Assembly (NCBI GenBank): GCA_030867875.1
Contig: JAOWCC010000903.1
Location: 1-64,000, forward strand
Reading direction: 5' to 3'
Length of the DNA stretch: 64,000 nucleotides
From: Actinernus sp. WN-2022
Taxonomy: Eukaryota; Cnidaria; Anthozoa; Actiniaria; Actinernidae
Positions 1-45,037 of this stretch are shown here, in pieces. The notes below the pieces were generated by a model. It was not told the origin of the DNA. It saw only the letters and a program-made list of their open reading frames with translations, and did not search any database. Each line of letters begins with the position of its first letter. Position 1 is the first letter of the stretch. The translations under genes and the position numbers were made by a program.

Positions 1-965
1 CCGTAGAGCCTCTAGGGTAATAAGAGACCGGGCCTTCGCTACGCGCTCGGTAAAGCTTTCCTCGGTGAAAGACCATAAACAGGAATGGTAACGTTCGAGT
101 TGTTGTCCCTGCTGGGTATACGTACACCCCTCGCAATGCCGGCCACGTTCTCGCATACATTCCCGGATGCACGTCATGACGTAAAGTGTTTTGTGCAAAG
201 CCCACCCGGCTTTTAGGGCGGGTAAATCCCGGTTGTCCGGCATGTCCCCCAAATCTAGGTCTTCTTGGTTCAATAACAATAGCTCGCGTGGGGCTGGTAG
301 CGAGCCTGAGGGGACCGGCTCGTTGTCGGGATGTCTATAGGGGGTGGGGACGGCGGAGGACCCTCGGCCATTGTACCAGTGGGGGGTCCGGATGACGTCT
401 CTGCCGGGTTCCACACATTCCCCGCCGGGGGCCCCGCCGGGGGCCCCGCCGGGGGACCCCTCGGGGGACACTGTAGACTCTCCACGGGGGGACCCGTAAG
501 AGGCGTAGCGGCGTTGGGATTGATCCAAGCGACGGGTGGTTTTTCTTGGGGGGCCTGTGACGTCCATGGCGACGCGTAGTACTGAGCTTTCTTAGGGGGT
601 GGGGGTCCAATAGGTTGTGCCGGAGGGCCGGCCCACATAAATCCCAGCGGAAACTCACACTTCGGGTTGGGCGACGGTGCCGTGCACGTGAAGAACACGC
701 GGTTCGGATTGTTCACACTTCGGCTCACCCCCACTTTCATCCACAAATTGTGGCCACACTTGGGAAATGTGTTGTACAATGTTCCGACCGGGATGGCCGC
801 TTTCACCAAAGGCAGGTCTTGCTCCGTAAAATAAAAGCTGCACGGCAGCACTGCGGGTTTCGACTTGTAATCCGCTGTTTGTCCACACTTGTAGACACAC
901 TCTGGCGTCCCCACTAATCCTTTGACGGCTTTGGCGTAACACCCACAAAAGCACGTAGGGAGCAT
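1..965 (-). CDS. Double GRF-type zinc-finger protein, copy a (3-prime end outside window)
   Basis: The start codon is at 965-963. Residues 5-48 (Cys 5, 7, 9, 23, 27, 42) and 68-111 (Cys 70, 94, 103, Trp 111, with an N-x-N-R-V-F-F-x-C core) each fit the GRF zinc-ribbon pattern, a family known for binding single-stranded DNA in TOP3A, NEIL3 and APE2. A Pro-rich linker with GPPA repeats follows. The GRF frame ends at 270 after 231 residues. A second frame, open from an ATG at 567 to the window edge, carries the conserved C-terminal domain. In unit e a single extra C joins the two. The junction is a C6 tract (complement of the G6 run near 547-552). Copy a keeps the GGG near position 30 that copies b and c lack. 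Function in the element is unknown; DNA binding is inferred from the fold pattern. Confidence 0.72.
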
Positions 966-1260
966 CGTTCACACTGAAATTTACAAAGGGGGTTCACTTT
1001 CTTATACGGCCCGGGGTCTTTTCCGGCCAGCCAATCCCCAGCCTGGGTTTGGTCTCCTTTCCAAAACCCCCCTCCGAACCTGGCGGGACCCCCCGAAACT
1101 TCCGACCAATCAGAAGCCTGGCTTTCGCCCCCAACTGAGTGACAGGTCTTTGACAGGACCGCGTGCGTAATGGCGTCGTTTTAGGCCACGCCCCCTGTCT
1201 CGGCCAATCAGGAGGCAGATGGTTGCCTCCAAGTGACCCCCCTTACTACTTACCAAACTT
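966..1260 (-). promoter_or_regulatory. Promoter of the GRF gene, copy a: three CCAAT boxes, GC box, TATA
   Basis: CCAAT motifs lie at 1031-1035, 1106-1110 and 1204-1208. A GC-box-like element (complement of CCACGCCCCC) is near 1183-1192. A TATA motif (GTATAA on the minus strand) is near 1002-1007, about 40 bases upstream of the ATG. A second TATATAA-like motif near 1288-1295, a splice-donor-like GGTAAGTAG at about 1254 and an AG acceptor at 974-975 would also allow a spliced upstream leader; that alternative is weak. The CCAAT plus TATA design recurs at the other two genes of the unit. Confidence 0.6.
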
Positions 1261-2310
1261 GAATAATTTTCCTGTATTTCTATTTCTTATATAACAGCAA
1301 AGTAACCTCTCAACGACGAAGCCTTGCCAGTATTTCAGTTGGGGAAAAGAGAAAGGTACACAATAAGGGAATCCGTGAAAATATTGATGCAGAGCAATCG
1401 GAGAAGAACGTGTACCAAGGCGCCTATGAAAGTAAGACATAATATGTCTTCCCTCATCGATGTAAGTTCGTACCAGAGTTGGGAAGACATCAAAAGTGAC
1501 ATGAATGGTGCCTATCCTCGTTGGTACATGGACTTTAGACATTGGTGAGAATACAAACGTGCAAATTCTGGACGAAAAAAGTGCCACTTCAACACAATAT
1601 TGAATTTCATATCAACATGAATTCCAGGATGAATAATTTTGTACTGTGTCGCCTCATTTTCTGTTTAACTGGACGAAATGGAAATTGAAGGAATTTTTTT
1701 GCCTGCATGTTTGTGTGATCGATGATGGCAGAAGGAAACACGTGCGCTTGAGAGGATTCGTTGAAAAGTTTGAATGGGGATTTGGAATTGACGGGGATTT
1801 TGGTGGTTGGTGACTTTAGTTATGGTTTTGTTAAGGCTTTGTTTGAATTTTATGATCGTGGTTTGTTTGTGGTTTGAACCAGCATAAGTTTATTGTAGAT
1901 TGTGTTTTGACTGGGGCAGCTGAACGTTTTTGTACGGTTGAGGTTTAGTTGGACATATATTCAGTTTTAAAGGTGGCAAATTTGCGGAGAAAGGTATTCA
2001 ACAAGCTGGAAAAAGGGGTGTGTTTTTGGTGACGTTGTTGGTAGTCCAGGTAATTATGTTGGGGAAACGTAGAATTGGTTTGTCAGGTAGTTTGTTGAAA
2101 GGGTTGGTTGATGGGAAGTAGAGTAATCAGCCATCAATGGGGTGTACAGGAGGAGGAATTATTTTACGCTGAAGGACTTCGCTCACTGGATTTCTGTTTT
2201 GTTTCAATAAAGGGGTAAGTACATATTATTTAAGATTTATTATTTCTGGGATTCGGGATGCTACGCTTACACCAAGGAGGAGAGCTAACGATATTAGTAT
2301 CATTAATAGT
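1261..2310. other. No gene recognised; probable 5-prime part of decayed transposon
   Basis: This is AT- and GT-rich sequence with only short chance frames on both strands, the longest a 113-codon minus-strand frame at 1246-1587. No domain is visible. An AATAAA followed by GGTAAG lies near 2208-2219. It sits between the GRF promoter and the transposon-like frames and is conserved in all five units. Confidence 0.4.
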
Positions 2311-3718
2311 ATGGATCCATTTTCCTGCAGTGTTCATGGTACAGGGGAAGGGAGTGGTAGCACTAGTAGTAGCACTAGTAGTAGCACTAGTAGTAGCACT
2401 AGTAGTAGCACCAGTAGTAGTAGTAGCAGTAGTTGTTCAAGGAGTGAGATAGAGAATTGTTAATATTCTGAGTGCTAGATATTAGGAGAGTTTGTCTCAG
2501 CCTTGTACGAGAGCAGAACAGAGAGATAGTGTGCTTGGGCGAGGAGCTGGAGAGGACGTACATGTATGGAGAGGTGAAAGTAGCTATGGAACAGTGTGGA
2601 AGTAAGGAAGCACTGGACAGAGAGATAGTTGAGCTAAAAACGAAGTATGAGAGTCAAAGTGCGAAGTCAGAGAAAGCTATGGAGAGACTTGGAAAACTGA
2701 GTGCTAGAGGAAGAAAGATATGAAAATAGATGAGTTGAAAAGAGAGCTGAAGAGTAAAGAGAGATGCAAGGGAAAGAGATGCAAAGGAAAGCCTGGAGTT
2801 GAGAAATGAGCAGATAGGAGTTAAAGAGAGAATGAATGAAGCACTGCAGAAAATGAAGAGAGCTAAGAGGGTTGTAAGTTATTATCGTGTGAAGCAGAGG
2901 AAGCAAGAAGAATGTAGTGGAAATGTCGCAGAGCTGAGGAGTCTTGTGAGTGAACTTGACCAAGATATGAGAGATCTGGAGAATAGAAATGTAGAGTTAG
3001 AAGATCGGGTGGGTGAGCTTATGTCTGAGAGGAGTGTATTTTTCAGGGTTGGAGGTATAGTAATGAAATCTGTTTGGTTTACATGGACTTGCGGACTTTA
3101 ACCCAGACCGATTACCTGGCCAAACATTTGCAAAGTACATGTTCATCGAAGCAAGAGCATTGGCTCAGATCCAGTTTCCCGAAGTCCTTTCTGACCAATT
3201 TTGAAATGCACCTTGCATTCAGATGGAACAAGTAAAGCAGGATTGCATTACGGAGGGTGAGGTTTTCACATTGGGTGTAAGGAGGGAAATGGGGGGGTGA
3301 AGGAAAGAAACGTGCCACAAAGAATCTGCTTGAACTTATATTTGCCGGTTAAGCGAATGTTAGTCCTTGGTGGTAAGTTTCATGTTGTGACTAATGCGTT
3401 GAAGAGAAAGATGTCAGTGTTGTAAATACTGTTGTGTCAGAGAGAGATTTCGGGTTTGTAGACGATGAGAGAGAAATGAGAGAGAAAGCGAGAGCAAGTA
3501 CTATTGTGATTGAGGGAAAGTTAATGTATCGTAAGAATGAAACAAGCAAGTGGCGAGATGAGTTGACAGAGGAGAAGGCAGAGGAGTATATGAGGAATGC
3601 AAGAAGAGCGAAGGAGAGGCAATTTGAACTGTACAGAGAAAGACGAGTTGTAATAAACAGTGGCAACTGTAAAACAGAGGAGGAGGAGGAGGAGTCACCT
3701 GAATCTCAAAATGTTTGA
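2311..3718 (+). pseudogene. Decayed transposon ORF, copy a (Ser-rich, coiled coil, acidic tail)
   Basis: Successive plus-strand fragments in different frames look like one eroded protein. They are a Ser/Thr-rich start at 2311 with a TSSS repeat (12-bp units), a Glu/Lys-rich coiled-coil part (2472-2723 and 2799-3060), a short stretch containing IEARALAQIQFPEVL (about 3140-3190), and a C-terminal piece (3434-3718) ending in a Glu run. Stops and shifts occur at about 2460, 2720-2800, 3100 and 3420. The arrangement recalls uncharacterised cnidarian transposase-like ORFs, but this is recollection and not a domain match. The same breaks occur in all units. Confidence 0.5.
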
Positions 3719-5482: not shown

Positions 5483-5749
5483 TCAAAAGATACAAACAAA
5501 CAAGCAAATAATCAAATAATAATACGAGGGATAGTCTACCCCCGGGGGGAAATTCACATCCTCCAGGAAGGCGTACAAATCATCCTCGTTGTAGGGGTTT
5601 ATTTCTTCGTACGCGATATCGTCCTCTGGGTCTCCCACAGGGTCTCCCACAGGGTCTCCCCCCGGGGAGGGATGAGGCGGCGGGGCCTCTTCTTCGAGGG
5701 TAGTGATGACTGGGTTGCCTTCTTCATCTAGATAATTCCAAGAGTCCAT
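5483..5749 (-). CDS. Small acidic protein (88 aa), copy a; possible transactivator
   Basis: The start is set at the ATG 5749-5747, which begins MDSWNY. The upstream ATG at 5773 would lie between the TATA box and the likely start site, so it is disfavoured. The protein is rich in Asp, Glu and Pro and has a DPVG repeat coded by 12-bp units. Its segment DDLYAFLEDVNFPPGVDYP mixes acidic, aromatic and Pro residues as acidic activation domains do. The last ten or so residues are hydrophobic and are read from TTTG-repeat DNA at the edge of the LINE fragment, so the original C-terminus may have been altered. No enzyme motif is present. Identical in length in all five units. Confidence 0.6.
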   Translation of the reverse strand: MDSWNYLDEEGNPVITTLEEEAPPPHPSPGGDPVGDPVGDPEDDIAYEEINPYNEDDLYAFLEDVNFPPGVDYPSYYYLIICLFVCIF

Positions 5750-5850
5750 CGTGCTCACACTAACCCAAATCAAAATGCATCGCTTCCTTATATATTTTTT
5801 TCACTGTTCTCTGATTGGTGCCTTTTTCTCGGCCGATGATTGGTTCAGCT
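5750..5850 (-). promoter_or_regulatory. Promoter of acidic-protein gene, copy a
   Basis: On the minus strand two CCAAT boxes (complements of ATTGG at 5813-5817 and 5839-5843) precede a TATATAAGG element at about 5787-5795. The TATA lies about 40 bases before the ATG. The layout copies that of the other two promoters in the unit. Confidence 0.65.
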
Positions 5851-6104
5851 AGAAGGAGCACGGCTTGTAAGTGGTGGAATTCGATCCGCTTTTGGTTCGA
5901 CTTGAACACCTGGGGTCTAAGAATCCTCTGAAAAACCCCTCCCCCTACCCCTTGTTCTTTAAAATTATCTCGCCCCACTCCGGGGGGAACCCTTCTTCCT
6001 TCCTTCTTTAAGCCGTAATCATTTTGCATTTTCTAAACATCTTTTCTGAGCTCCTAAATCCTAAAACCTAAATCCCCTCAACAAACGCGCCCAGCTAGGG
6101 TAAC

Positions 6105-6240
6105 AAAAACTAGTCCAACCGGTTTATCCCAGTTTAGGAGCCTCTCGTGAATGAGATTTTGTGAGGCAAAGACGCACGGCTCCTGATTGGTGGAAAACTA
6201 GTCTAACCGGTTTATCCCAGTTTAGATTCTCGTGAATGAA
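6105..6240. promoter_or_regulatory. Duplicated AACCGGTT block in control region, copy a
   Basis: A block containing ACTAGTC(C/T)AACCGGTTTATC is present twice, about 88 bases apart (near 6108 and 6197), each followed by TCTCGTGAATGA. AACCGGTT is the palindromic core recognised by Grainyhead/CP2 factors in animals. An inverted CCAAT (CTGATTGG) lies between the copies. The block lies between the divergently transcribed acidic and RING genes, so it could act as a shared enhancer. An AATAAA near 6303 has no obvious gene to serve. Confidence 0.5.
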
Positions 6241-6484
6241 AGTGGCGTGATGTAAAGGCGCGCGCTCCGCGATTCCTGATTCAGCGTGTACGAGGTTTTG
6301 GCAATAAAGGAACCCTTTCCCGGGTCGCCGAAGACGAAAAAAATAGTGGAAAAATTAGAAACCCTGGAGGGCTAATTCCAGCAAAAATTTTTTAGACCAT
6401 TTCAGGACTGTTTTGGGGGTGAATTTTGAGAGTCAAAAACCCAAAATCCACTGAAAACGAATTCGAACCCATTTCGGATCGAAT

Positions 6485-6600
6485 GACCCCGCCAATCACA
6501 GCGCTCGCTCCGCTTAGCGAACCAATCGTAGGCCGAGCTTAATGCACCAATCACAGCCCAGCCTTTTGCCGCATAAATACTAGCCCCAAAACTAACTTCG
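6485..6600 (+). promoter_or_regulatory. Promoter of the spliced RING gene, copy a
   Basis: Three CCAAT boxes (about 6492, 6522 and 6548) precede a CATAAATA TATA element at 6572. Transcription should start near 6600. Exon 1 then runs to the GT donor at 6627. The minus-strand shadow frame here is not coding. Confidence 0.7.
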
Positions 6601-7020
6601 GCACAGTTCAACCAGCCACTCAACCGGTAAGTTTACACAAAATTTTCTCTTGGAATTCAACCTGAGGCCTTACTAATCTTTTCTTTTTTGGTTTTTACTT
6701 GACTAATCTTTTCTTCTTTGGTTTTTCCCTTTTTATTTCACCAGTCAAACAACAAACAGCAACAAGACAACAACAACAGGTGAGTTTTACACAAAAGTCT
6801 CTCTGGAAATTCAACCTGAGGCTTTACTAATCTTTTCTTCTTTGGTTTTTCCTTTTTATTTCTACAGACAAAACAACAACAACGCTATGGCTGTCCAAAG
6901 GCCCATTCGAGAGATGGAGGTACTATCCTGCGACTTTCTTTTTGCCTTGGAATACCCCTGCTAATTTTTCTTTTGTTTTTCTAGAATATCCGAGGCGTAC
7001 CCACACTCAACCTGGCTCAA
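6601..7020 (+). CDS. Common leader exons of the RING gene, copy a (start codon at 6887)
   Basis: Exon 1 ends at 6626 (CG|GTAAGT). Exon 2 is 6745-6779, bounded by CACCAG and GTGAGT. Exon 3 is 6868-6919 and holds the first ATG at 6887 after a CAA-rich leader. Exon 4 is 6985-7020, between TTTTTCTAG and GTAAGT. Exon 3 contributes 11 codons and exon 4 contributes 12; both end in phase 0. Introns 1 and 2 are paralogous, each with ACCTGAGG, TTACTAATCTTTTC and GGTTTTT in the same order; TTACTAAT resembles a branch point. The 23-residue leader has no known domain. Copy a reads Gln at residue 4 where copies b-e read Arg. Confidence 0.65.
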
Positions 7021-7148
7021 GTAAGTTGTTGTTGATGTTCTCCCACCTCCCTAAAACAGTGTTAACGTTCGGTCACTGCTTCAGAGAGCCGTTCATTTTA
7101 TTGGCAAACATTTCCCCATTGAGTAAAAGTTTTGATTAATTTTTATAG

Positions 7149-7211
7149 GCTTTTCTCGAGGTCCCCACCGGGGGGATCTCCGCTCTTGTCAGAGCGCCTC
7201 TAGCGAACTAA
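7149..7211 (+). CDS. Alternative 3-prime exon 5a, copy a: 20 codons with strong RNA fold
   Basis: An acceptor (TTTTTATAG at 7140-7148) opens a phase-0 frame of 20 codons ending in TAA at 7209. The same bases form a three-way junction. The outer stem is 7155-7161 with 7197-7203 (one mismatch), hairpin one is 7162-7166 with 7172-7176, and hairpin two is 7181-7186 with 7191-7196. It may be a short terminal exon or mainly a structured RNA element. No donor is visible downstream, so it is not a clear internal exon. Confidence 0.4.
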   Translation, partial: AFLEVPTGGISALVRAPLAN

Positions 7212-7277
7212 ATTCTCTAAAACATTATTCGTTTTTTAAAAAATAAAATATTTTTTTAATTTTTCTTTTCCGAACAG

Positions 7278-7769
7278 ACTTTTGGACCTGTGGCTATTGA
7301 TCTCACAGACACTCATTTCATTCATCATGCGCTCTGCTTAAGACAGTTTGGACTCCCAATGGAAATCATCGCGCGGATTGGGGCCTACGTCTGCGGTCAA
7401 CAGAGGGCCGACAAGAGGAAAATCAAACATACCAAATTATTTTTCCCAACTCTTTTATTAATTACATGTCTGGATACTTGGGAATTTGAATCAGTCTACT
7501 GTTGGGACGCTAGTTTCCAGGAACTCCCACATAACAAACGCTTTTGGGGAATGGACCCTGTCCAAGCCGCTATGTTTATCGAACCGTTGACAGAATTTAC
7601 ATTCCGTTGGTGCCGGCGGTGCCATTCCAATACAACCGTATGCCAACGCCATTGTAACGTCGGGATTATTTATAGGCGCTGCCCCCACCACCCCGTTTAT
7701 TCTCAAGTGGATCACGAGGGGTGGGGCAGATTTCCGTGGCGTAAGCTTTTCTTCCACATCGAGTGTTAA
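7278..7769 (+). CDS. Alternative exon 5b, copy a: F-box-like N-part with Cys/His-rich C-part
   Basis: The acceptor TTCCGAACAG ends at 7277 and the frame continues in phase 0 for 163 residues. An early LPMEIIARIGAYV helix resembles the LP-x-E-I-x-x-I core of F-box motifs; this likeness is weak. The last third is rich in paired Cys and His (WCRRCH, VCQRHC, RCPHH), suggesting zinc binding. There is no ATG of its own near the start, which supports splicing from the common leader to give about 186 residues. A GTAAGC at 7741 could act as an internal donor, but it is in phase 1 and would put the next exon out of frame. Confidence 0.6.
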   Translation, partial: TFGPVAIDLTDTHFIHHALCLRQFGLPMEIIARIGAYVCGQQRADKRKIKHTKLFFPTLLLITCLDTWEFESVYCWDASFQELPHNKRFWGMDPVQAAMFIEPLTEFTFRWCRRCHSNTTVCQRHCNVGIIYRRCPHHPVYSQVDHEGWGRFPWRKLFFHIEC

Positions 7770-7790
7770 ATTCCTATATTTTTTTTCTAG

Positions 7791-8072
7791 TGTGTGAACT
7801 GTGGCCATCAGCCAGAACAACAACAACAGTTACCGCCTATGCCTTGTTGTGGCGAAACAATATGTCCCTCATGCTTTGTGGGGTTGTTGAAACCGGACCT
7901 GAGGAAAGACGGACACCCTGAATGTTTTTATTGTGCGACAAGAATGAGACATCCCTTCTATGTCCGGGCGGGGTCCATTATAATTTTTCGTCATGGCATC
8001 ACATTTGGGTGCGTAACTTTACCCTTAACAGAACGCTTTAGTCGACGTTATGATCTTGTTTTCCCTCGATAA
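7791..8072 (+). CDS. Alternative exon 5c, copy a: RING-type zinc finger 1
   Basis: The acceptor TTTTTTTCTAG ends at 7790 and the first codon is the first Cys ligand. Cysteines at exon residues 1, 4, 19, 20, 25, 28, 45 and 48 give C-x2-C-x14-CC-x4-C-x2-C-x16-C-x2-C, a RING variant with the LPxPCCxxTxCxxC core. RING domains usually act as E3 ubiquitin ligases by binding E2 enzymes. A conserved C-terminal part (HPFYVRAGS, then FRHG and LVF) is shared with exon 5d. The exon lacks an ATG before the ring, so the common leader must supply the start; the product would be 116 residues. Confidence 0.72.
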   Translation, partial: CVNCGHQPEQQQQLPPMPCCGETICPSCFVGLLKPDLRKDGHPECFYCATRMRHPFYVRAGSIIIFRHGITFGCVTLPLTERFSRRYDLVFPR

Positions 8073-8163
8073 AGGAAAAGTTTACGCCATTGAAATTTTC
8101 CTGTTTCCTGAAGTTCCTCCCGTGGCATAAATTAGACCTAAATTTTTATTTTTTATTTTTTAG

Positions 8164-8433
8164 TGTTCTAAATGTAGCACAGAACAAGAGGACATTTTAC
8201 CGCCTCTACCCTGTTGCAGGAGAACTGTGTGTGCCGCCTGCTTAATCTTCAGAATCTCTACATTTCTTAACAGAAACGAAGTCCCCCGGTGTTATTTTTG
8301 CCAGTCAAAATTCTACCACTTATTTTATATAAAAGCGGGAAGCCTAATTGTATTCCACCATGGAACCGTTTTTGGTATCGTTGTTTTGCCAATCGATCGT
8401 GAATACCAGCAGCATTATGGATTAGTTTTTTAA
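8164..8433 (+). CDS. Alternative exon 5d, copy a: RING-type zinc finger 2
   Basis: The acceptor TTTATTTTTTAG ends at 8163. The 89-codon frame again starts on a Cys ligand (residues 1, 4, 17, 18, 23, 26, 43, 46). It aligns with exon 5c along its whole length, differing mainly between the first and second Cys pairs, so the two arose by tandem exon duplication. Spliced to the leader in phase 0 it gives a 112-residue protein. The stop is TAA at 8431; in units c and d this stop is changed to AAA. Confidence 0.72.
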   Translation, partial: CSKCSTEQEDILPPLPCCRRTVCAACLIFRISTFLNRNEVPRCYFCQSKFYHLFYIKAGSLIVFHHGTVFGIVVLPIDREYQQHYGLVF

Positions 8434-8487
8434 AAAATTATGCCACGGGAAGTTCTTCTATTTTTTTCTAAATTTTTTAAAAACTTA

Positions 8488-8692
8488 TTAGGGCCATTAG
8501 CCTACTTTCAAAATTACATCAATACTAGGGCGATTAGCCCCCTTTTTCTATTACATAAATATTAGGGCGATTAGCCCCCATTTTCAAAAATTTCATCACT
8601 ACTAGGGCGATTAGCCCCCATTTTCAAAAAATTCATCACTACTAGGGCGATTAGCCTACTTTTTCATAAATACTAGGACGATTAGTCCACTT
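8488..8692. repeat. Six spaced short hairpins (GGGC-GATTA-GCCC family), copy a
   Basis: Six units spaced about 35-50 bases apart contain an inverted repeat around a five-base loop, usually GATTA. Three read GGGC/GCCC. The first and fifth read GGGC/GCCT (G-U wobble, or TAGG/CCTA in another register). The sixth reads GGAC/GTCC, a compensatory change. The pattern suggests a bound or folded element such as an iteron-like origin, a boundary, or an RNA 3-prime element. It lies just after exon 5d. Confidence 0.7.
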
Positions 8693-8951
8693 TTCTACAC
8701 GGATATTTTCTATCTCTCGAATGGGCCCCACGGGATGGCCTGTAAATAGTTTTTTTTTTTTATATTTCTATAATTTTATAATTTGGTTGAAAGGATACCT
8801 TACATTATAATTATTATATTTTCAATACTTGTATTAATTAATTAATTTTGGTGCGCCTGAAATGGGGCACCGCAACCCTGTATTTTATTTTTTAATTAAC
8901 GAAAACAAAGTTGTTTTTACTCAAACAAAAAGTCTCTTTTATTGTCTCCAA
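8693..8951. terminator. AT-rich convergent intergenic region with hairpin and minus-strand poly(A) signal
   Basis: T-rich and TTAATTAATTAATTAA-type sequence is followed by a hairpin at 8850-8871 (GGTGCGCC with GGGGCACC, one mismatch, six-base loop). An AATAAA on the minus strand at 8938-8943 lies about ten bases past the GRF gene stop. No canonical plus-strand AATAAA is seen for the RING gene, so its 3-prime end is unclear. Confidence 0.5.
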
Positions 8952-10194
8952 TTACATAGTGGTTGAATCACATAAAGCCACAAGGGTTAACACTCCAATT
9001 TCCACATAGTCCTGGGGATTGTCTTCGTAAATTAAAGCCTGGCCTAACGCATGCCAAATTCGATTCTTGTACGTAATGGTAGGGTCTTCGATTTCTTCAA
9101 AATAATACCGTTTGTAGACCTCGTAAATCTCGGCCTCCCTTAGTTTTTGCAACTGTTCAAACACGGTATACGTAAGGGGAGCAATAATCCCCGAGAGGTG
9201 CAAACTCTGCAAAGCCCGGTAGCCCGTAGCCCGTAGAGCCTCTAGGGTAATAAGAGACCGGCCTTCGCTACGCGCTCGGTAAAGCTTTCCTCGGTGAAAG
9301 ACCATAAACAGGAATGGTAACGTTCGAGTTGTTGTCCCTGCTGGGTATACGTACACCCCTCGCAATGCCGGCCACGTTCTCGCATACATTCCCGGATGCA
9401 CGTCATGACGTAAAGTGTTTTGTGCAAAGCCCACCCGGCTTTTAGGGCGGGTAAATCCCGGTTGTCCGGCATGTCCCCCAAATCTAGGTCTTCTTGGTTC
9501 AATAACAATAGCTCGCGTGGGGCTGGTAGCGAGCCTGAGGGGACCGGCTCGTTGTCGGGATGTCTATAGGGGGTGGGGACGGCGGAGGACCCTCGGCCAT
9601 TGTACCAGTGGGGGGTCCGGATGACGTCTCTGCCGGGTTCCACACATTCCCCGCCGGGGGCCCCGCCGGGGGCCCCGCCGGGGGACCCCTCGGGGGACAC
9701 TGTAGACTCTCCACGGGGGGACCCGTAAGAGGCGTAGCGGCGTTGGGATTGATCCAAGCGACGGGTGGTTTTTCTTGGGGGGCCTGTGACGTCCATGGCG
9801 ACGCGTAGTACTGAGCTTTCTTAGGGGGTGGGGGTCCAATAGGTTGTGCCGGAGGGCCGGCCCACATAAATCCCAGCGGAAACTCACACTTCGGGTTGGG
9901 CGACGGTGCCGTGCACGTGAAGAACACGCGGTTCGGATTGTTCACACTTCGGCTCACCCCCACTTTCATCCACAAATTGTGGCCACACTTGGGAAATGTG
10001 TTGTACAATGTTCCGACCGGGATGGCCGCTTTCACCAAAGGCAGGTCTTGCTCCGTAAAATAAAAGCTGCACGGCAGCACTGCGGGTTTAGACTTGTAAT
10101 CCGCTGTTTGTCCACACTTGTAGACACACTCTGGCGTCCCCACTAATCCTTTGACGGCTTTGGCGTAACACCCACAAAAGCACGTAGGGAGCAT
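8952..10194 (-). CDS. Double GRF zinc-finger gene, copy b (two one-base frame differences)
   Basis: The GRF frame runs 10194 to 9499 (231 aa). The C-terminal domain lies in another frame from an ATG at 9796, which ends early at 9242 because the tract near 9261 reads CCGGCC where a, d and e read CCGGGCC. The rest of the domain then reads on to the stop at 8952. Relative to unit e this copy lacks one C at the C6/C7 tract and one G at the GG/GGG tract. Three GPPA repeats. Either a broken gene, two overlapping frames, or assembly error at homopolymers. Confidence 0.65.
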
Positions 10195-35428: not shown

Positions 35429-35449
35429 ATTCCTATATTTTTTTTCTAG

Positions 35450-35731: not shown

Positions 35732-35822
35732 AGGAAAAGTTTACGCCATTGAAATTTTCCTGTTTCCTGAAGTTCCTCCCGTGGCATAAATTAGACCTAA
35801 ATTTTTATTTTTTATTTTTTAG

Positions 35823-36224
35823 TGTTCTAAATGTAGCACAGAACAAGAGGACATTTTACCGCCTCTACCCTGTTGCAGGAGAACTGTGTGTGCCGCCTGC
35901 TTAATCTTCAGAATCTCTACATTTCTTAACAGAAACGAAGTCCCCCGGTGTTATTTTTGCCAGTCAAAATTCTACCACTTATTTTATATAAAAGCGGGAA
36001 GCCTAATTGTATTCCACCATGGAACCGTTTTTGGTATCGTTGTTTTGCCAATCGATCGTGAATACCAGCAGCATTATGGATTAGTTTTTAAAAAAATTAT
36101 GCCACGGGAAGTTCTTCTATTTTTTTCTAAATTTTTTAAAAACTTATTAGGGCCATTAGCCTACTTTCAAAATTACATCAATACTAGGGCGATTAGCCCC
36201 CTTTTTCTATTACATAAATATTAG
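35823..36224 (+). CDS. Alternative exon 5d, RING finger 2, copy d, extended by stop loss
   Basis: Same TAA-to-AAA change and 44-residue tail as copy c. Confidence 0.66.
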   Translation, partial: CSKCSTEQEDILPPLPCCRRTVCAACLIFRISTFLNRNEVPRCYFCQSKFYHLFYIKAGSLIVFHHGTVFGIVVLPIDREYQQHYGLVFKKIMPREVLLFFSKFFKNLLGPLAYFQNYINTRAISPLFLLHKY

Positions 36225-36351
36225 GGCGATTAGCCCCCATTTTCAAAAATTTCATCACTACTAGGGCGATTAGCCCCCATTTTCAAAAAATTCATCACTA
36301 CTAGGGCGATTAGCCTACTTTTTCATAAATACTAGGACGATTAGTCCACTT
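36147..36351. repeat. Six-hairpin cluster, copy d
   Basis: Conserved. This is the last copy in the array, since unit e is cut before it. Confidence 0.68.
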
Positions 36352-36610
36352 TTCTACACGGATATTTTCTATCTCTCGAATGGGCCCCACGGGATGGCCT
36401 GTAAATAGTTTTTTTTTTTTATATTTCTATAATTTTATAATTTGGTTGAAAGGATACCTTACATTATAATTATTATATTTTCAATACTTGTATTAATTAA
36501 TTAATTTTGGTGCGCCTGAAATGGGGCACCGCAACCCTGTATTTTATTTTTTAATTAACGAAAACAAAGTTGTTTTTACTCAAACAAAAAGTCTCTTTTA
36601 TTGTCTCCAA

Positions 36611-37867
36611 TTACATAGTGGTTGAATCACATAAAGCCACAAGGGTTAACACTCCAATTTCCACATAGTCCTGGGGATTGTCTTCGTAAATTAAAGCCTG
36701 GCCTAACGCATGCCAAATTCGATTCTTGTACGTAATGGTAGGGTCTTCGATTTCTTCAAAATAATACCGTTTGTAGACCTCGTAAATCTCGGCCTCCCTT
36801 AGTTTTTGCAACTGTTCAAACACGGTATACGTAAGGGGAGCAATAATCCCCGAGAGGTGCAAACTCTGCAAAGCCCGGTAGCCCGTAGCCCGTAGAGCCT
36901 CTAGGGTAATAAGAGACCGGGCCTTCGCTACGCGCTCGGTAAAGCTTTCCTCGGTGAAAGACCATAAACAGGAATGGTAACGTTCGAGTTGTTGTCCCTG
37001 CTGGGTATACGTACACCCCTCGCAATGCCGGCCACGTTCTCGCATACATTCCCGGATGCACGTCATGACGTAAAGTGTTTTGTGCAAAGCCCACCCGGCT
37101 TTTAGGGCGGGTAAATCCCGGTTGTCCGGCATGTCCCCCAAATCTAGGTCTTCTTGGTTCAATAACAATAGCTCGCGTGGGGCTGGTAGCGAGCCTGAGG
37201 GGACCGGCTCGTTGTCGGGATGTCTATAGGGGGTGGGGACGGCGAGGGACCCTCGGCCATTGTACCAGTGGGGGGTCCGGATGACGTCTCTGCCGGGTTC
37301 CACACATTCCCCGCCGGGGGCCCCGCCGGGGGCCCTGCCGAGGGCCCCGCCGGGGAACCCCTCGGTGGACACTGTAGACTCTCCACGGGGGGACCCGTAA
37401 GAGGCGTAGCGGCGTTGGGATTGATCCAAGCGACGGGTGGTTTTTCTTGGGGGGGCCTGTGACGTCCATGGCGACGCGTAGTACTGAGCTTTCTTAGGGG
37501 GTGGGGGTCCAATAGGTTGTGCCGAAGGGCCGGCCCACATAAATCCCAGCGGAAACTCACACTTCGGGTTGGGCGACGGTGCCGTGCACGTGAAGAACAC
37601 GCGGTTCGGATTGTTCACACTTCGGCTCACCCCCACTTTCATCCACAAATTGTGGCCACACTTGGGAAATGTGTTGTACAATGTTCCGACCGGGATGGCC
37701 GCTTTCACCAAAGGCAGGTCTTGCTCCGTAAAATAAAAGCTGCACGGCAGCACTGCGGGTTTCGACTTGTAATCCGCTGTTTGTCCACACTTGTAGACAC
37801 ACTCTGGCGTCCCCACTAATCCTTTGACGGCTTTGGCGTAACACCCACAAAAGCACGTAGGGAGCAT
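36611..37867 (-). CDS. Double GRF zinc-finger protein, copy e: the only uninterrupted 418-aa frame
   Basis: This frame joins the GRF pair (residues 5-48 and 68-111), a Pro/Gly/Arg-rich linker (about 112-230) and the C-terminal domain. The latter has Cys 282, Cys 285, His 298 and Cys 300 in a C-x2-C-x12-H-x-C zinc motif, followed by helical sequence to residue 418. Continuity comes from a seven-base C tract (G7 near 37450-37456) where other units have six, plus the GGG near 36920. The linker carries several changes not seen elsewhere (Pro to Ser or Leu, Gly to Arg), so this region evolves loosely. The poly(A) signal lies just past the stop. No enzymatic motif is seen; nucleic-acid binding is the likeliest role. 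Confidence 0.75.
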   Translation of the reverse strand: MLPTCFCGCYAKAVKGLVGTPECVYKCGQTADYKSKPAVLPCSFYFTEQDLPLVKAAIPVGTLYNTFPKCGHNLWMKVGVSRSVNNPNRVFFTCTAPSPNPKCEFPLGFMWAGPSAQPIGPPPPKKAQYYASPWTSQAPPRKTTRRLDQSQRRYASYGSPRGESTVSTEGFPGGALGRAPGGAPGGECVEPGRDVIRTPHWYNGRGSLAVPTPYRHPDNEPVPSGSLPAPRELLLLNQEDLDLGDMPDNRDLPALKAGWALHKTLYVMTCIRECMRERGRHCEGCTYTQQGQQLERYHSCLWSFTEESFTERVAKARSLITLEALRATGYRALQSLHLSGIIAPLTYTVFEQLQKLREAEIYEVYKRYYFEEIEDPTITYKNRIWHALGQALIYEDNPQDYVEIGVLTLVALCDSTTM

Positions 37868-38162
37868 CGTTCACACTGAAATTTACAAAGGGGGTTCACT
37901 TTCTTATACGGCCCGGGGTCTTTTCCGGCCAGCCAATCCCCAGCCTGGGTTTGGTCTCCTTTCCAAAACCCCCCTCCGAACCTGGCGGGACCCCCCGAAA
38001 CTTCCGACCAATCAGAAGCCTGGCTTTCGCCCCCAACTGAGTGACAGGTCTTTGACAGGACCGCGTGCGTAATGGCGTCGTTTTAGGCCACGCCCCCTGT
38101 CTCGGCCAATCAGGAGGCAGATGGTTGCCTCCAAGTGACCCCCCTTACTACTTACCAAACTT
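37868..38162 (-). promoter_or_regulatory. GRF gene promoter, copy e
   Basis: Three CCAAT boxes, GC box and TATA unchanged. Confidence 0.57.
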
Positions 38163-39230
38163 GAATAATTTTCCTGTATTTCTATTTCTTATATAACAGC
38201 AAAGTAACCTCTCAACGACGAAGCCTTGCCAGTATTTCAGTTGGGGAAAAGAGAAAGGTACACAATAAGGGAATCCGTGAAAATATTGATGCAGAGCAAT
38301 CGGAGAAGAACGTGTACCAAGGCGCCTATGAAAGTAAGACATAATATGTCTTCCCTCATCGATGTAAGTTCGTACCAGAGTTGGGAAGACATCAAAAGTG
38401 ACATGAATGGTGCCTATCCTCGTTGGTACATGGACTTTAGACATTGGTGAGAATACAAACGTGCAAATTCTGGACGAAAAAAGTGCCACTTCAACACAAT
38501 ATTGAATTTCATATCAACATGAATTCCAGGATGAATAATTTTGTACTGTGTCGCCTCATTTTCTGTTTAACTGGACGAAATGGAAATTGAAGGATTTTTT
38601 TTGCCTGCATGTTTGTGTGATCGATGATGGCAGAAGGAAACACGTGCGCTTGAGAGGATTCGTTGAAAAGTTTGAATGGGGATTTGGAATTGACGGGGAT
38701 TTTGGTGGTTGGTGACTTTAGTTATGGTTTTGTTAAGGCTTTGTTTGAATTTTATGATCGTGGTTTGTTTGTGGTTTGAACCAGCATAAGTTTATTGTAG
38801 ATTGTGTTTTGACTGGGGCAGCTGAACGTTTTTGTACGGTTGAGGTTTAGTTGGACATATATTCAGTTTTAAAGGTGGCAAATTTGCGGAGAAAGGTATT
38901 CAACAAGCTGGAAAAAGGGGTGTGTTTTTGGTGATGTTGTTGGTAGTCCAGGTAATTATGTTGGGGAAACGTAGAATTGGTTTGTCAGGTAGTTTGTTGA
39001 AAGGGTTGGTTGATGGGAAGTAGAGTAATCAGCCATCAATGGGGGGTTTCCAAAGGAGGGGGTGTACAGGAGGAGGAATTATTTTACGCTGAAGGACTTC
39101 GCTCACTGGATTTCTGTTTTGTTTCAATAAAGGGGTAAGTACATATTATTTAAGATTTATTATTTCTGGGATTCGGGATGCTACGCTTACACCAAGGAGG
39201 ATAGCTAACGATATTAGTATCATTAATAGT

Positions 39231-40681
39231 ATGGATCCATTTTCCTGCAGTGTTCATGGTACAGGGGAAGGGAGTGGTAGCACTAGTAGTAGCACTAGTA
39301 GTAGCACTAGTAGTAGCACTAGTAGTAGCACTAGTAGTAGCACCAGTAGTAGTAGTAGCAGTAGTTGTTCAAGGAGTGAGATAGAGAATTGTTAATATTC
39401 TGAGTGCTAGATATTAGGAGAGTTTGTCTCAGCCTTGTACGAGAGCAGAACAGAGAGATAGTGTGCTTGGGCGAGGAGCTGGAGAGGACGTACATGTATG
39501 GAGAGGTGAAAGTAGCTATGGAACAGTGTGGAAGTAAGGAAGTACTGGACAGAGAGATAGTTGAGCTAAAAACGAAGTATGAGAGTCAAAGTGCGAAGTC
39601 AGAGAAAGCTATGGAGAGACTTGGAAAACTGAGTGCTAGAGGAAGAAAGATATGAAAATAGATGAGTTGAAAAGAGAGCTGAAGAGTAAAGAGAGATGCA
39701 AGGGAAAGAGATGCAAAGGAAAGCCTGGAGTTGAGAAATGAGCAGATAGGAGTTAAAGAGAGAATGAATGAAGCACTGCAGAAAATGAAGAGAGCTAAGA
39801 GGGTTGTAAGTTATTATCGTGTGAAGCAGAGGAAGCAAGAAGAATGTAGTGGAAATGTCGCAGAGCTGAGGAGTCTTGTGAGTGAACTTGACCAAGATAT
39901 GAGAGATCTGGAGAATAGAAATGTAGAGTTAGAAGATCGGGTGGGTGAGCTTATGTCTGAGAGTGTATTTTTCAGGGTTGGAGGTATAGTAATGAAATCT
40001 GTTTGGTTTACATGGACTTGCGGACTTTAACCCAGACCGATTACCTGGCCAAACATTTGCAAAGTACATGTTCATCGAAGCAAGAGCATTGGCTCAGATC
40101 CAGTTTCCCGAAGTCCTTTCTGACCAATTTTGAAATGCACCTTGCATTCAGATGGAACAAGTAAAGCAGGATTGCATTACGGAGGGTGAGGTTTTCACAT
40201 TGGGTGTAAGGAGGGAAATGGGGGGGGGGTGTTTCAGTGTTTGGTAATTCCACGTGCTGTAGAAGGAAAGAACCGTGCCACAAAGAATCTGCTTGAACTT
40301 ATATTTGCCGGTTAAGCGAATGTTAGTCCTTGGTGGTAAGTTTCATGTTGTGACTAATGCGTTGAAGAGAAAGATGTCAGTGTTGTAAATACTGTTGTGT
40401 CAGAGAGAGATTTCGGGTTTGTAGACGATGAGAGAGAAATGAGAGAGAAAGCGAGAGCAAGTACTATTGTGATTGAGGGAAAGTTAATGTATCGTAAGAA
40501 TGAAACAAGCAAGTGGCGAGATGAGTTGACAGAGGAGAAGGCAGAGGAGTATATGAGGAATGCAAGAAGAGCGAAGGAGAGGCAATTTGAACTGTACAGA
40601 GAAAGACGAGTTGTAATAAACAGTGGCAACTGTAAAACAGAGGAGGAGGAGGAGGAGTCACCTGAATCTCAAAATGTTTGA
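39231..40681 (+). pseudogene. Decayed transposon ORF, copy e
   Basis: Five Ser-repeat units, a codon missing near 39962 and about 35 extra bases near 40220-40262 beside a G9 run. The extra DNA may be ancestral sequence lost from a-d. Confidence 0.48.
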
Positions 40682-41682
40682 GATTTGGGGTTCAACGGTA
40701 GGTATGGCTACAAATGGTCACTTTGTTACACTGCGTGCAAGTTCCTTACAATAAGGTAACAGGAATAAAATACAATTTTCGTTTTAATTTGTTGAGGCTT
40801 CCTTTAGTTGTGGTATATGATTTAAGAGCCAAAGTGAAAGTGTTAGTTGTGTAGCATTTTTTAAACAACCATTGAGCCACGTTGTAGAAGGAGCTGAATT
40901 TGAAAACACCTCTAAATGGCACTTTTATATGGGAAGAAATTGAAAAACATTTTTAGGTAACAATAAAATGGCAGATTTGGAAATAGGTAGAATTTCACGA
41001 ATCTAAGAAAGTGTCGTTTTCGTGAATCTGCACAAAGGTAACATATAACGATGAATCAGTTAAAAATGTGATTTTTTCAGTGAGACAAATGAAACCTTGT
41101 TGCAAGAAGCCTTTAGGTTCGTATTGCGGCTTAAAGGTGACAGGGAAACAACGTGTTTTTTTGAAATATTGATTGACAATTGTTATTTTGGAAAAACCGG
41201 GAAATAGTTTGGAAGAGGTTATACTTTTTAAGTTAAAGACATTTCCTTGTAGTATGTAATGTTGAATACAAAGGCTATTGGTTTATTTCAAACCTTCTGC
41301 TTAATCACTAAACGGTCTCTTCCAATCGGAAATAAATTGTTGTGATCTTGATAGTGCCCCTGTTAGAAATTATGAAAGGACAACCTGACAGGAAAAGGAA
41401 AGATATATTAATATGAGAAAACAAATTAATAAACATCAGTCGACTTGATCCTGCACTGAGCGCTAGTACGTAGTAAAGAAATACTAGCAAATTAAGACTA
41501 GCAACCATTATAAAGCAATGGACACGGAGGAACTGAGATATTTCGAATTTCAGTGAGATATCACCACAACGCAACTTTCCCCTGAATTGAGTCAGAGTTC
41601 TCAATCCAGCCAAGTGATCTTTTACTAAACTCATTCACATTTACTACTGTAACAATCATCGCTTCAACGTCAGGCATTACCA

Positions 41683-42026
41683 ATGCTACTACGTCTTCCA
41701 CTGCTCCAGAACATGGCCATCATCCAATTCAGTAAACGCCATATCAAACGAATCTTAATACTCTGCCAACGCAACCACACTATTCGGTGCCAATCATATG
41801 CAGTCCCAATGAGCTGTTCCCGTATACAAACCCATCGACCACTAATTCCGTTTACCAGTGTACGAGCCTATCTTCCGTAGATACCAAATCGGTATACACA
41901 TGGCCCATTTTACAATGTGATGATAATGAGAAGCTCTCGTTTTCCTTATGGCCCTTGTGTCCAACAACCAAATCTGGCACCCAAACCACCACAAGAACCC
42001 ACTCAGCGTCCATAATAAGGCGCAGC

Positions 42027-42058
<32 letters not shown>

Positions 42059-42428
42059 CCTAAAAGGTGCCAAACAACAACCAGAAAACACACCCTTAAG
42101 CACTATGGACCAACCTTCTGGAATTCCCTTGATAACACTATAACCCAAGCACAATCCTTAAATATTTTTCAAGCTAGACTCAAATCACATCTTTTCCAAC
42201 TAAAACAATGAACCCTAATTATTGACTATTTGTTTGTTTGTTTCTGTTCATAATCTATGTTATTTTGCTGTACCAATGTACTTCTACTCGCAGTGCTGAT
42301 TTACCAATTATAAAATTTTGCCGCCCATGGGTGTCAGTGCCTGTACAAGCTCCTTGGAGTTTTTTTCACTGAACACCTTCCATATATATATACTTAAATT
42401 AAAGATAATATAACTTATTCCACTTAGA
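41683..42428 (+). mobile_element. LINE 3-prime fragment, copy e
   Basis: Same as copy d; the frame ends at 42211. Confidence 0.48.
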
Positions 42429-42445
42429 TCTACAAATCAATATAT

Positions 42446-42712
42446 TCAAAAGATACAAACAAACAAGCAAATAATCAAATAATAATACGAGGGATAGTCT
42501 ACCCCCGGGGGGAAATTCACATCCTCCAGGAAGGCGTACAAATCATCCTCGTTGTAGGGGTTTATTTCTTCGTACGCGATATCGTCCTCTGGGTCTCCCA
42601 CAGGGTCTCCCACAGGGTCTCCCCCCGGGGAGGGATGAGGCGGCGGGGCCTCTTCTTCGAGGGTAGTGATGACTGGGTTGCCTTCTTCATCTAGATAATT
42701 CCAAGAGTCCAT
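42446..42712 (-). CDS. Small acidic protein, copy e
   Basis: Intact 88-residue frame. Confidence 0.6.
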   Translation of the reverse strand: MDSWNYLDEEGNPVITTLEEEAPPPHPSPGGDPVGDPVGDPEDDIAYEEINPYNEDDLYAFLEDVNFPPGVDYPSYYYLIICLFVCIF

Positions 42713-43572
42713 CGTGCTCACACTAACCCAAATCAAAATGCATCGCTTCCTTATATATTTTTTTCACTGTTCTCTGATTGGTGCCTTTTTCTCGGCCGAT
42801 GATTGGTTCCGCTAGAAGGAGCACGGCTTGTAAGTGGTGGAATTTGATCCGCTTTTGGTTCGACTTGAACACCTGGGGTCTAAGAATCCTCTGAAAAACC
42901 CCTCCCCCTACCCCTTGTTCTTTAAAATTATCTCGCCCCACTCCGGGGGGAACCCTTCTTCCTTCCTTCTTTAAGCCGTAATCATTTTGCATTTTCTAAA
43001 CATCTTTTCTGAGCTCCTAAATCCTAAAACCTAAATCCCCTCAACAAACGCGCCCAGCTAGGGTAACAAAAACTAGTCCAACCGGTTTATCCCAGTTTAG
43101 GAGCCTCTCGTGAATGAGATTTTGTGAGGCAAAGACGCACGGCTCCTGATTGGTGGAAAACTAGTCTAACCGGTTTATCCCAGTTTAGATTCTCGTGAAT
43201 GAAAGTGGCGTGATGTAAAGGCGCGCGCTCCGCGATTCCTGATTCAGCGTGTACGAGGTTTTGGCAATAAAGGAACCCTTTCCCGGGTCGCCGAAGACGA
43301 AAAAAATAGTGGAAAAATTAGAAACCCTGGAGGGCTAATTCCAGCAAAAAATTTAGACCATTTCAGGACTGTTTTGGGGGTGAATTTTGAGAGTCAAAAA
43401 CCCAAAATCCACTGAAAACGAATTCGAACCCATTTCGGATCGAATGACCCCGCCAATCACAGCGCTCGCTCCGCTTAGCGAACCAATCGTAGGCCGAGCT
43501 TAATGCACCAATCACAGCCCAGCCTTTTGCCGCATAAATACTAGCCCCAAAACTAACTTCGGCACAGTTCAA
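42713..43572. promoter_or_regulatory. Divergent control region, copy e
   Basis: AACCGGTT duplication at 43068-43203 and RING TATA at 43533. The exon 1 donor reads CCGGAAAGTT instead of CCGGTAAGTT (near 43588), which destroys the GT and should impair intron 1 splicing in this copy. Confidence 0.58.
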
Positions 43573-43847
43573 CCAGCCACTCAACCGGAAAGTTTACACA
43601 AAATTTTCTCTTGGAATTCAACCTGAGGCCTTACTAATCTTTTCTTTTTTGGTTTTTACTTGACTAATCTTTTCTTCTTTGGTTTTTCCCTTTTTATTTC
43701 ACCAGTCAAACAACAAACAGCAACAAGACAACAACAACAGGTGAGTTTTACACAAAAGTCTCTCTGGAAATTCAACCTGAGGCTTTACTAATCTTTTCTT
43801 CTTTGGTTTTTCCTTTTTATTTCTACAGACAAAACAACAACAACGCT

Positions 43848-43981
43848 ATGGCTGTCCGAAGGCCCATTCGAGAGATGGAGGTACTATCCTGCGACTTTCT
43901 TTTTGCCTTGGAATACCCCTGCTAATTTTTCTTTTGTTTTTCTAGAATATCCGAGGCGTACCCACACTCAACCTGGCTCAA
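43848..43981 (+). CDS. Common leader coding exons of RING gene, copy e
   Basis: ATG at 43848 and exon 4 at 43946-43981 are intact, although the untranslated exon 1 donor upstream is mutated. Confidence 0.58.
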
Positions 43982-44108
43982 GTAAGTTGTTGTTGATGTT
44001 CTCCCACCTCCCTAAAACAGTGTTAACGTTCGGTCACTGCTTCAGAGAGCCGTTCATTTTATTGGCAAACATTTCCCCATTGAGTAAAAGTTTGATTAAT
44101 TTTTATAG

Positions 44109-44171
44109 GCTTTTCTCGAGGTCCCCACCGGGGGGATCTCCGCTCTTGTCAGAGCGCCTCTAGCGAACTAA
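44109..44171 (+). CDS. Alternative exon 5a with three-way-junction fold, copy e
   Basis: Stems conserved; one base is missing upstream in the intron (near 44090). Confidence 0.38.
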   Translation, partial: AFLEVPTGGISALVRAPLAN

Positions 44172-44237
44172 ATTCTCTAAAACATTATTCGTTTTTTTTA
44201 AAAAAAATTATTTTTTTAATTTTTCTTTTCCGAACAG

Positions 44238-44729
44238 ACTTTTGGACCTGTGGCTATTGATCTCACAGACACTCATTTCATTCATCATGCGCTCTGCTTA
44301 AGACAGTTTGGACTCCCAATGGAAATCATCGCGCGGATTGGGGCCTACGTCTGCGGTCAACAGAGGGCCGACAAGAGGAAAATCAAACATACCAAATTAT
44401 TTTCCCCAACTCTTTTATTAATTACATGTCTGGATACTTGGGAATTTGAATCAGTCTACTGTTGGGACGCTAGTTTCCAGGAACTCCCACATAACAAACG
44501 CTTTTGGGGAATGGACCCTGTCCAAGCCGCTATGTTTATCGAACCGTTGACAGAATTTACATTCCGTTGGTGCCGGCGGTGCCATTCCAATACAACCGTA
44601 TGCCAACGCCATTGTAACGTCGGGATTATTTATAGGCGCTGCCCCCACCACCCCGTTTATTCTCAAGTGGATCACGAGGGGTGGGGCAGATTTCCGTGGC
44701 GTAAGCTTTTCTTCCACATCGAGTGTTAA
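44238..44729 (+). CDS. Alternative exon 5b, copy e
   Basis: Intact with one Phe-to-Ser change (TKLFSPT). The intron T-run before the acceptor is rearranged. Confidence 0.58.
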   Translation, partial: TFGPVAIDLTDTHFIHHALCLRQFGLPMEIIARIGAYVCGQQRADKRKIKHTKLFSPTLLLITCLDTWEFESVYCWDASFQELPHNKRFWGMDPVQAAMFIEPLTEFTFRWCRRCHSNTTVCQRHCNVGIIYRRCPHHPVYSQVDHEGWGRFPWRKLFFHIEC

Positions 44730-44750
44730 ATTCCTATTTTTTTTTTCTAG

Positions 44751-45032
44751 TGTGTGAACTGTGGCCATCAGCCAGAACAACAACAACAGTTACCGCCTAT
44801 GCCTTGTTGTGGCGAAACAATATGTCCCTCATGCTTTGTGGGGTTGTTGAAACCGGACCTGAGGAAAGACGGACACCCTGAATGTTTTTATTGTGCGACA
44901 AGAATGAGACATCCCTTCTATGTCCGGGCGGGGTCCATTATAATTTTTCGTCATGGCATCACATTTGGGTGCGTAACTTTACCCTTAACAGAACACTTTA
45001 GTCGACGTTATGATCTTGTTTTCCCTCGATAA
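44751..45032 (+). CDS. Alternative exon 5c, RING finger 1, copy e (last exon before the array edge)
   Basis: Intact apart from an Arg-to-His change near the C-terminus. Array homology ends five bases after its stop, so this unit has no exon 5d, no hairpin cluster and no convergent GRF gene. Confidence 0.68.
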   Translation, partial: CVNCGHQPEQQQQLPPMPCCGETICPSCFVGLLKPDLRKDGHPECFYCATRMRHPFYVRAGSIIIFRHGITFGCVTLPLTEHFSRRYDLVFPR

Positions 45033-45037
45033 AGGAA

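Follow-up and report, generated by a model that had tools for sequence, protein, structure and literature searches.

The available part of PMC8097293 describes vertebrate Mavericks as having 6-bp duplications and (AGT)2//(ACT)2 ends, and states that accessory regions flank the core in most Maverick elements. Here, we compare with these elements a tandem array from Actinernus sp. WN-2022 (Cnidaria, Actiniaria), located in a stretch of 64,000 nucleotides (nt) that we refer to as the window (GenBank assembly GCA_030867875.1, contig JAOWCC010000903.1, positions 1 to 64,000, forward strand). An earlier note, made from the letters of this DNA, had described the array as repeats of a compact virus-like gene module. 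We consider it highly probable that it represents a passenger amplification of the right end of a Maverick/Polinton within a repeat cluster, and that the parent element carries an accessory module.

Self-comparison of the window revealed one tandem array at positions 1–45037, comprising 4.9 head-to-tail units with successive offsets of 9230, 9229, 9238, and 9192 bp and identities of 98.6–99.3%. This bears out the 9.2-kb period given in the earlier note. Alignment of five units revealed 48 variant places between them. Each unit is composed of 4,966 bp of Maverick/Polinton right end (e.g., 33187–38152), matching the module size of about 5 kb that the note had obtained after subtracting transposon debris, and of approximately 4.3 kb of an unrelated repeat. 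The supposed debris is mostly a clustered repeat family, and a LINE-like part was recognized by eye. As the unit contains neither a second terminal repeat nor the core genes, it is a fragment and not a whole element. The replicase and capsid genes that the note did not see in the unit are cut off: the polymerase lies in fuller dispersed copies, in which no capsid could be identified. The array is composed of the following segments.

1 to 1250, plus strand: Maverick right-end fragment of unit 1, cut by the window start and reaching the element terminus (several genome matches end at 1250)
5526 to 10479, plus strand: Maverick right-end fragment, units 1/2 (defined by junctions)
14755 to 19720, plus strand: Maverick right-end fragment, units 2/3 (defined by junctions)
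23996 to 28935, plus strand: Maverick right-end fragment, units 3/4 (defined by junctions)
33187 to 38152, plus strand: Maverick right-end fragment, units 4/5, reference copy, common to the dispersed copies, with terminus TTACTACT
38153 to 42488, no strand: non-Maverick portion, a repeat-family segment with coiled-coil-like frames (search with 38400–41400) and LINE-like 3' debris (by eye)
42489 to 45037, plus strand: Maverick fragment of the last unit, interrupted just past the stop codon of the RING-like exon RING1 (unit alignment)

A search of the whole assembly (1.39 Gb, 1,772 contigs) located the window in contig C1671, with scores obtained for 40 out of 1,332 candidates; genome copy counts are lower bounds throughout. 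Array units accounted for 21 matches on four contigs, i.e., five on C1671, six on C1604 (one partial), seven on C922, and three on C981. The other 19 scored places were dispersed and matched only approximately the first 1,100–1,250 query bases. Position 1 of the window already lies inside the array, which runs off the window start. Furthermore, C981 (238,674 bp) stops less than 2.3 kb beyond its last match, and C922 and C1604 start less than 2.7 kb before their first RING1 match. The array is real, but incomplete at contig ends.

To characterize the parent element, both sides were fetched for 10 of the 19 dispersed copies, with further leftward pieces for four. The stretch common to the array and the dispersed copies corresponds to positions 33186–38152 and was found, whole or largely, in all ten fetched copies; L013 and L003 lacked parts, L015 was interrupted, and the right ends of L017 and L019 had diverged. 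Eight of the nine right ends compared carried the terminus TTACTACT, followed by locus-specific DNA (L019 was the diverged one; L017 lay outside this set). Leftward of the array edge, each of the ten copies continued colinearly with at least one other copy. This leftward part includes a polymerase frame that stays open over more than 1,200 amino acids (aa) and matched DNA_pol_B_2 (PF03175; E 3.5e-34) and a PHROG DNA polymerase (E 3.3e-36). In the same frame (L009:1–3684, minus strand), PHROGs endonuclease families matched residues 752–816 (E 2.9e-7) and 738–811 (E 0.0059). The rve integrase (PF00665) was found above cut-off in L021 and L022 (E 5.8e-14 and 1.9e-13), and both integrases have a C-terminal chromodomain (Chromo E 3.3e-9 and 9.8e-10). 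An ATPase-like frame matched Pox_A32 with an E-value of 4.9e-4 and 20.1 bits, which is under the cut-off of 22.8. For a 181-aa frame, all four PDB matches at E ≤ 1 were proteases, including the adenoviral proteinase and S273R, with a weak best E-value of 0.035. Terminal inverted repeats were present in both elements that were read at both ends, with 263 bases and 99.2% identity in L021/L009, which is approximately 18.4 kb long, and 261 bases and 99.6% identity in L026/L005. Both have AGTAGT/ACTACT ends on these repeats and 6-bp target duplications (GCTGTA for L021/L009, CCCGTA for L026/L005). Judged by its ends, duplications, polymerase, and integrase, the dispersed parent is a Maverick/Polinton.

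As far as the available parts of PMC8097293 and PMC4028283 go, the parent agrees with described Mavericks/Polintons in its AGTAGT/ACTACT ends, 6-bp duplications, rve integrase, family-B polymerase, and ATPase-like gene, and its terminal repeats fall inside the published range of 46–1,447 bp. The array units differ in retaining one accessory end only. Another difference concerns introns: conserved open reading frames are intronless according to the part of PMC8097293 at hand, whereas the accessory region described here is predicted to be spliced. With adintoviruses, as presented in the available part of PMC11071296, the parent shares the integrase with C-terminal chromodomain, an adenovirus-like polymerase, and variable accessory genes. 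The word-start "ring" is absent from the available texts of PMC8097293 and PMC4028283, for which GRF and F-box were not searched, and "ubiquitin", "F-box", and "GRF" are absent from the available main text of PMC11071296. Among the literature matches listed, nothing on point was found for tandem or satellite Polinton derivatives or for ubiquitin-ligase or F-box genes in Polintons. In the viral_contigs collection, the module frames had no relative, and neither had the parent's ATPase, hexon-like, and polymerase frames; because the latter are also without match there, this collection is little informative on animal Mavericks.

The earlier note had left three origins open. An endogenised virus agrees best with the data, with the module as the right accessory end of a Maverick/Polinton that has polymerase, integrase, ATPase-like, and protease-like genes. 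A selfish episome-derived element is not needed. A host gene array is the wrong description for the module, and the other 4.3 kb derive mostly from a repeat family with its own tandem cluster.

This family, here called the partner repeat, was searched using positions 38400–41400 as query (40 of 708 candidates scored). It was found in 21 array units (one partial) and as diverged copies on C813 (2.29–2.43 Mb), C981, C922, C1594, and C758, with matches on seven contigs. The scores on C981 and C813 were equal or nearly so in six match pairs, as alternative haplotypes would give. On C1594, five matches with a period of 7.83 kb lie at 161195–193435 (L032), apparently without the module. One of the partner-repeat copies on C1594 (L032) adjoins a PIF1-like helicase frame (weak, E 3.3e-4), and a 370-aa frame is also present; given the PIF1-like neighbour, the partner repeat may itself be mobile. 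As the partner repeat expands alone, the truncated Maverick end is most simply seen as a passenger, and passenger amplification is, from the sequences compared, the most likely origin of the array. A truncated copy would have inserted into the self-expanding repeat cluster, and growth of the cluster, probably by unequal crossing-over, would have amplified the module as a passenger and not for its function.

The module was compared between the array copy and nine dispersed copies. Ratios of nonsynonymous to synonymous changes (dN/dS) are pooled pairwise simple counts without a tree, with gap and stop codons skipped; L015 was left out of the core alignment, which its insertions interrupt. Values for shifted frames are given for comparison. 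In the reference copy, the features are as follows.

33187 to 33410, minus strand: acidic protein gene, represented by 75 codons of its 5' part (dN/dS 0.34; shifted frames 1.55 and 1.11)
34151 to 34245, plus strand: promoter-like stretch of the predicted spliced unit, with three CCAAT boxes (aligned copies)
34546 to 34578, plus strand: predicted leader exon with ATG, 33 nt, MAVRRPIREME, GT directly after (border pattern)
34644 to 34679, plus strand: predicted leader exon, 36 nt, NIRGVPTLNLAQ, flanked by AG/GT (12 of 13 sequences)
34937 to 35425, plus strand: predicted alternative 3' exon 1, 163-aa Cys/His-rich protein (dN/dS 0.13; shifted frames 1.56 and 1.94)
35450 to 35728, plus strand: predicted alternative 3' exon 2, RING1-like stretch of 93 aa (dN/dS 0.27; shifted frames 1.24 and 1.58)
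35823 to 36092, plus strand: predicted alternative 3' exon 3, RING2-like domain (dN/dS 0.23; shifted frame 1.15)
36150 to 36347, no strand: six short hairpins of the GGGCGATTAGCCC type amid convergent 3' ends (sequence inspection)
36614 to 37469, minus strand: frame b, conserved ATG at 37469, approximately 282 aa in most dispersed copies, start uncertain (constraint for the C-terminal 200 codons, 36614–37213)
37184 to 37867, minus strand: GRF-like frame, ATG at 37867, about 230 aa long in the majority of copies, lower boundary approximate (dN/dS)
37890 to 38152, minus strand: right terminal inverted repeat (261–263 bp in full elements), containing, upstream of the GRF frame, three CCAAT boxes and a TATA-like site (element-end comparison)

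With dN/dS values of 0.13–0.34, the module genes are, by this measure, under purifying selection across the dispersed copies. Several parts of the gene layout proposed in the earlier note could be retained. The convergent 3' ends do meet at a hairpin cluster. Regarding the CCAAT/TATA promoters, the CCAAT boxes are present, with three upstream of the plus-strand gene (in all ten aligned copies), three in the terminal repeat, and two upstream of the acidic gene; the TATA part is a prediction that relates to ATAAATA in eight of ten aligned copies (ATAAATG in L013 and L017) and to the TATA-like site before the GRF frame. The acidic protein has its gene, but this is cut short in the array to 88 aa from the ATG, including read-through into foreign DNA, compared to a frame of 284 aa from stop to stop in L009. 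Of the spliced set of RING and F-box-like products, the splice borders and RING-like cysteines stand as predictions, and the F-box does not. Both leader exons with their GT/AG borders, as well as the 163-aa exon acceptor, were found in 12 of 13 sequences (L015 fails); in the splice-border and divergence comparisons, the 33-nt exon was placed at 34547–34579, one base to the right of the position listed above. The predicted junctions are all in phase 0, which fits a shared leader with alternative 3' exons. Two 19-nt arms with 95% complementarity (34559–34577 and 36368–36386) lie in the leader exon and the 3' intergenic region, a possible antisense or small-RNA target.

RING1 and RING2 are paralogues with 40% identity, and eight cysteines are invariant in 12 sequences. 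Their cysteine spacing (C-x0-C-x4-C) is not canonical with respect to the Cys/His spacing rule of RING domains. The 418-aa double-GRF protein of the earlier note had to be given up. This frame (36611–37870) is present in unit 5 only and is a fusion of two frames, because an extra G gives a run of seven G; in units 1–4 and all nine dispersed copies the extra G is missing and the frames are separate. The GRF-like frame has 227–231 aa in six of seven dispersed copies measured (209 in L009; L013 and L017 are excluded, as their start-codon pattern was unmatched). Its dN/dS is 0.14 over approximately the first 119 codons (shifted frames 1.58 and 1.60). Frame b opens after a stop with the conserved ATG inside, is shortened in L003, and has lost one base in units 2 and 3; its C-terminal 200 codons have a dN/dS of 0.27 (shifted frames 0.97 and 0.87).

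In the full element, the module would form the right accessory region, probably an early one. The GRF-like gene would be transcribed from a promoter in the terminal repeat. Two divergent promoters at the centre would serve the acidic protein on one strand and the spliced transcript on the other, with two coding mini-exons (23 codons, from the ATG) joined in phase to one of the three 3' exons for the 163-aa Cys/His, RING1-like, and RING2-like proteins. The module proteins most likely target host ubiquitination as well as DNA or transcription control during replication. Adenovirus early regions are known for compact divergent promoters, alternative splicing, and acidic and ubiquitin-directed proteins encoded close to the ends of the genome. 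The module shares this layout as predicted, and no sequence relation of its proteins was found; the analogy offers a reasonable lead but does not amount to a test. The replicative helicase of a papilloma- or polyomavirus-like element was looked for as well, and no helicase family was found in the module frames scanned.

Divergence is uneven along the module. Between the array and L017, it amounts to 34% in the 163-aa exon, 33% in RING1, 40% in RING2, and 27% in the hairpin region, compared to 3–5% in the acidic, frame b, and GRF parts and 12–15% in introns 2 and 3. In pairs with L007, L013, or L017, the three exons are 14–47% divergent, whereas coding and intron flanks differ by about 1–16%. 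Between the array and L005, divergence is uniform at 0–7%, except for the 36-nt leader exon (34644–34679), which differs by 25% even though intron 2 and the 163-aa exon differ by 1.6%; the small leader exons are also variable, on few bases. The exon proteins are strongly conserved despite this divergence (dN/dS 0.13–0.27). The simplest reading of these alignments is an exchange of the exon block between lineages. We tentatively propose, as a possibility with the odds somewhat against it, a spliced early unit in which a single ATG leader can be followed by any one of three host-ubiquitin-directed 3' exons and the block is swapped between lineages as a cassette.

RING1 was also searched in the genome, and 150 of 1,249 candidates were scored. 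All 150 scored places lack an internal stop. Approximately 80 of them form a subfamily whose frame has 94 residues, and many of these score identically. Two members of this subfamily (L028 and L029) are 99.5% identical over 3.9 kb. Recent activity is likely. The exon block has been tandemly amplified at least twice in the genome. Besides the array, 28 RING1 copies with a spacing of approximately 1.53 kb lie at C888:40183700–40225309 in a deleted Maverick (L027, L033, and L034), 27 of them identical to the query and one at 98%. The unit corresponds approximately to window positions 34660–36204, i.e., the 163-aa/RING1/RING2 block. At its left edge, sequence that lies within the polymerase frame of other copies is joined straight to the 163-aa exon, without promoter and leader, and L027, which contains two complete 163-aa exons, has a frameshift in one of them. 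We therefore do not read the C888 array as a functional gene expansion, and gene-dosage selection behind it was not adopted.

Several points weigh against the interpretation as passenger right end with an accessory module. The second amplification on C888 could signal selection for copy number, and the lack of RING1 on C1594 applies only to the 150 of 1,249 candidates scored. In the parent, hexon and penton were not identified: frames of 446, 425, and 447 aa in likely places have no Pfam match, and the 446-aa frame has no PDB capsid match. Every exon and promoter is a prediction from DNA alone. The RING1 acceptor AG is present in nine of ten copies and missing in L001; that of RING2 is present in all nine copies holding the exon, which L013 lacks. 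In the 70-codon overlap, with frames assigned by the analyst, dN/dS is 0.41 for the GRF frame and 1.06 for frame b, so that constraint on frame b is limited to its downstream part and its true start is uncertain. Profile and structure searches of the frames, as the earlier note had suggested, gave weak matches for GRF and RING and none for the F-box. Pfam GRF (PF06839) matched only the second motif when the first 119 residues were scanned (E 0.049; 14.2 bits, cut-off 25.9); the first motif was undetected there, and neither the 227-aa protein nor the fused frame gave a GRF match at E ≤ 1. The best solved structure for the RING-like proteins was TRIM32 with a weak E-value of 0.26. Pfam matches of the 12 RING-like members were all weak, with zf-C3HC4_3 in three (best E 0.26) behind Baculo_IE-1 in five (0.024) and DUF1936 in five (0.029). 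No F-box family was found in the ten 163-aa members (Pfam, E ≤ 5), two of which matched one unrelated DUF each, and no F-box was among the PDB matches of the 163-aa protein. Structure models of two window proteins were poor (pLDDT 35.1 for the 163-aa protein and 45.5 for the other), too poor to search. Protein searches with the 418-aa fused frame, the 163-aa frame, and the RING alignment found no relatives. As Pfam and PDB matches were weak or empty and the models unusable, we retained the labels "RING-like" and "GRF-like" and dropped "F-box".

Among the rival explanations, a domesticated array survives best, although we regard it as improbable. The host would keep numerous copies of viral accessory genes to hold Mavericks or other viruses in check through the gene products or small RNAs, which would agree with 21 near-identical unit matches, an open RING1 in each of the 20 scored array copies, promoter and leader retained in the window units, and the second amplification on C888. 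However, at 98.6–99.3% identity the units of the window are too young to reveal selection, a one-base loss breaks frame b in units 2 and 3, the GRF frame is altered in unit 5, and the acidic gene is truncated. Moreover, the C888 array lacks promoter and leader, and on C1594 the partner repeat apparently expands in the absence of the module. Still less probable is an assembly artefact in which the assembler multiplied one or two real units. Contigs do begin or end within the array, but periods differ (11.69 kb on C981), and a simple assembly duplicate is unlikely because small indels differ among units and units lie on four contigs. A free or recently free 9.2-kb episome or circular virus, integrated head to tail, would explain near-identical head-to-tail units but is highly improbable and was rejected, as the unit has a linear-element terminus inside (38152), a truncated left edge (33187), no replicase in the frames scanned, and nearly half of its length in repeat DNA mostly found elsewhere, and as the genome contains full linear elements bounded by terminal repeats and target duplications.

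Other sequences of the window were inspected in passing. Next to the LINE-like debris, 30 bases at 42028–42057, and at the same place in four other units, look like antisense sequence to a part of 28S rRNA that is universally conserved; the Rfam scan of the DNA gave no match at gathering score, and an array of rDNA or another known structured RNA was rejected on this basis. In the right flank, positions 49611–52743 and 56248–59381 are direct copies of a 3.1-kb repeat (96.9% identity), both with tandem repeats of roughly 140 bp; the first copy contains a SET-domain frame (E 3.1e-6). At positions 46859–48650 and 54411–63937, frames resembling LINE reverse transcriptases were noted by eye, along with further frames of transposon-like character (weak DUF6589 match, E 0.043).

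The comparison identifies a puzzling array without recognisable replicase as the severed end of a known viral element, a Maverick/Polinton. The new part is the accessory region of the parent family, which is without match in protein searches, with predicted alternative splicing and apparent block swapping, and of whose RING-like exon a single genome holds many near-identical copies. An unusual set of small genes is present in the fuller relatives and may serve host-cell manipulation. If this is true, host manipulation by Mavericks would become testable gene by gene.

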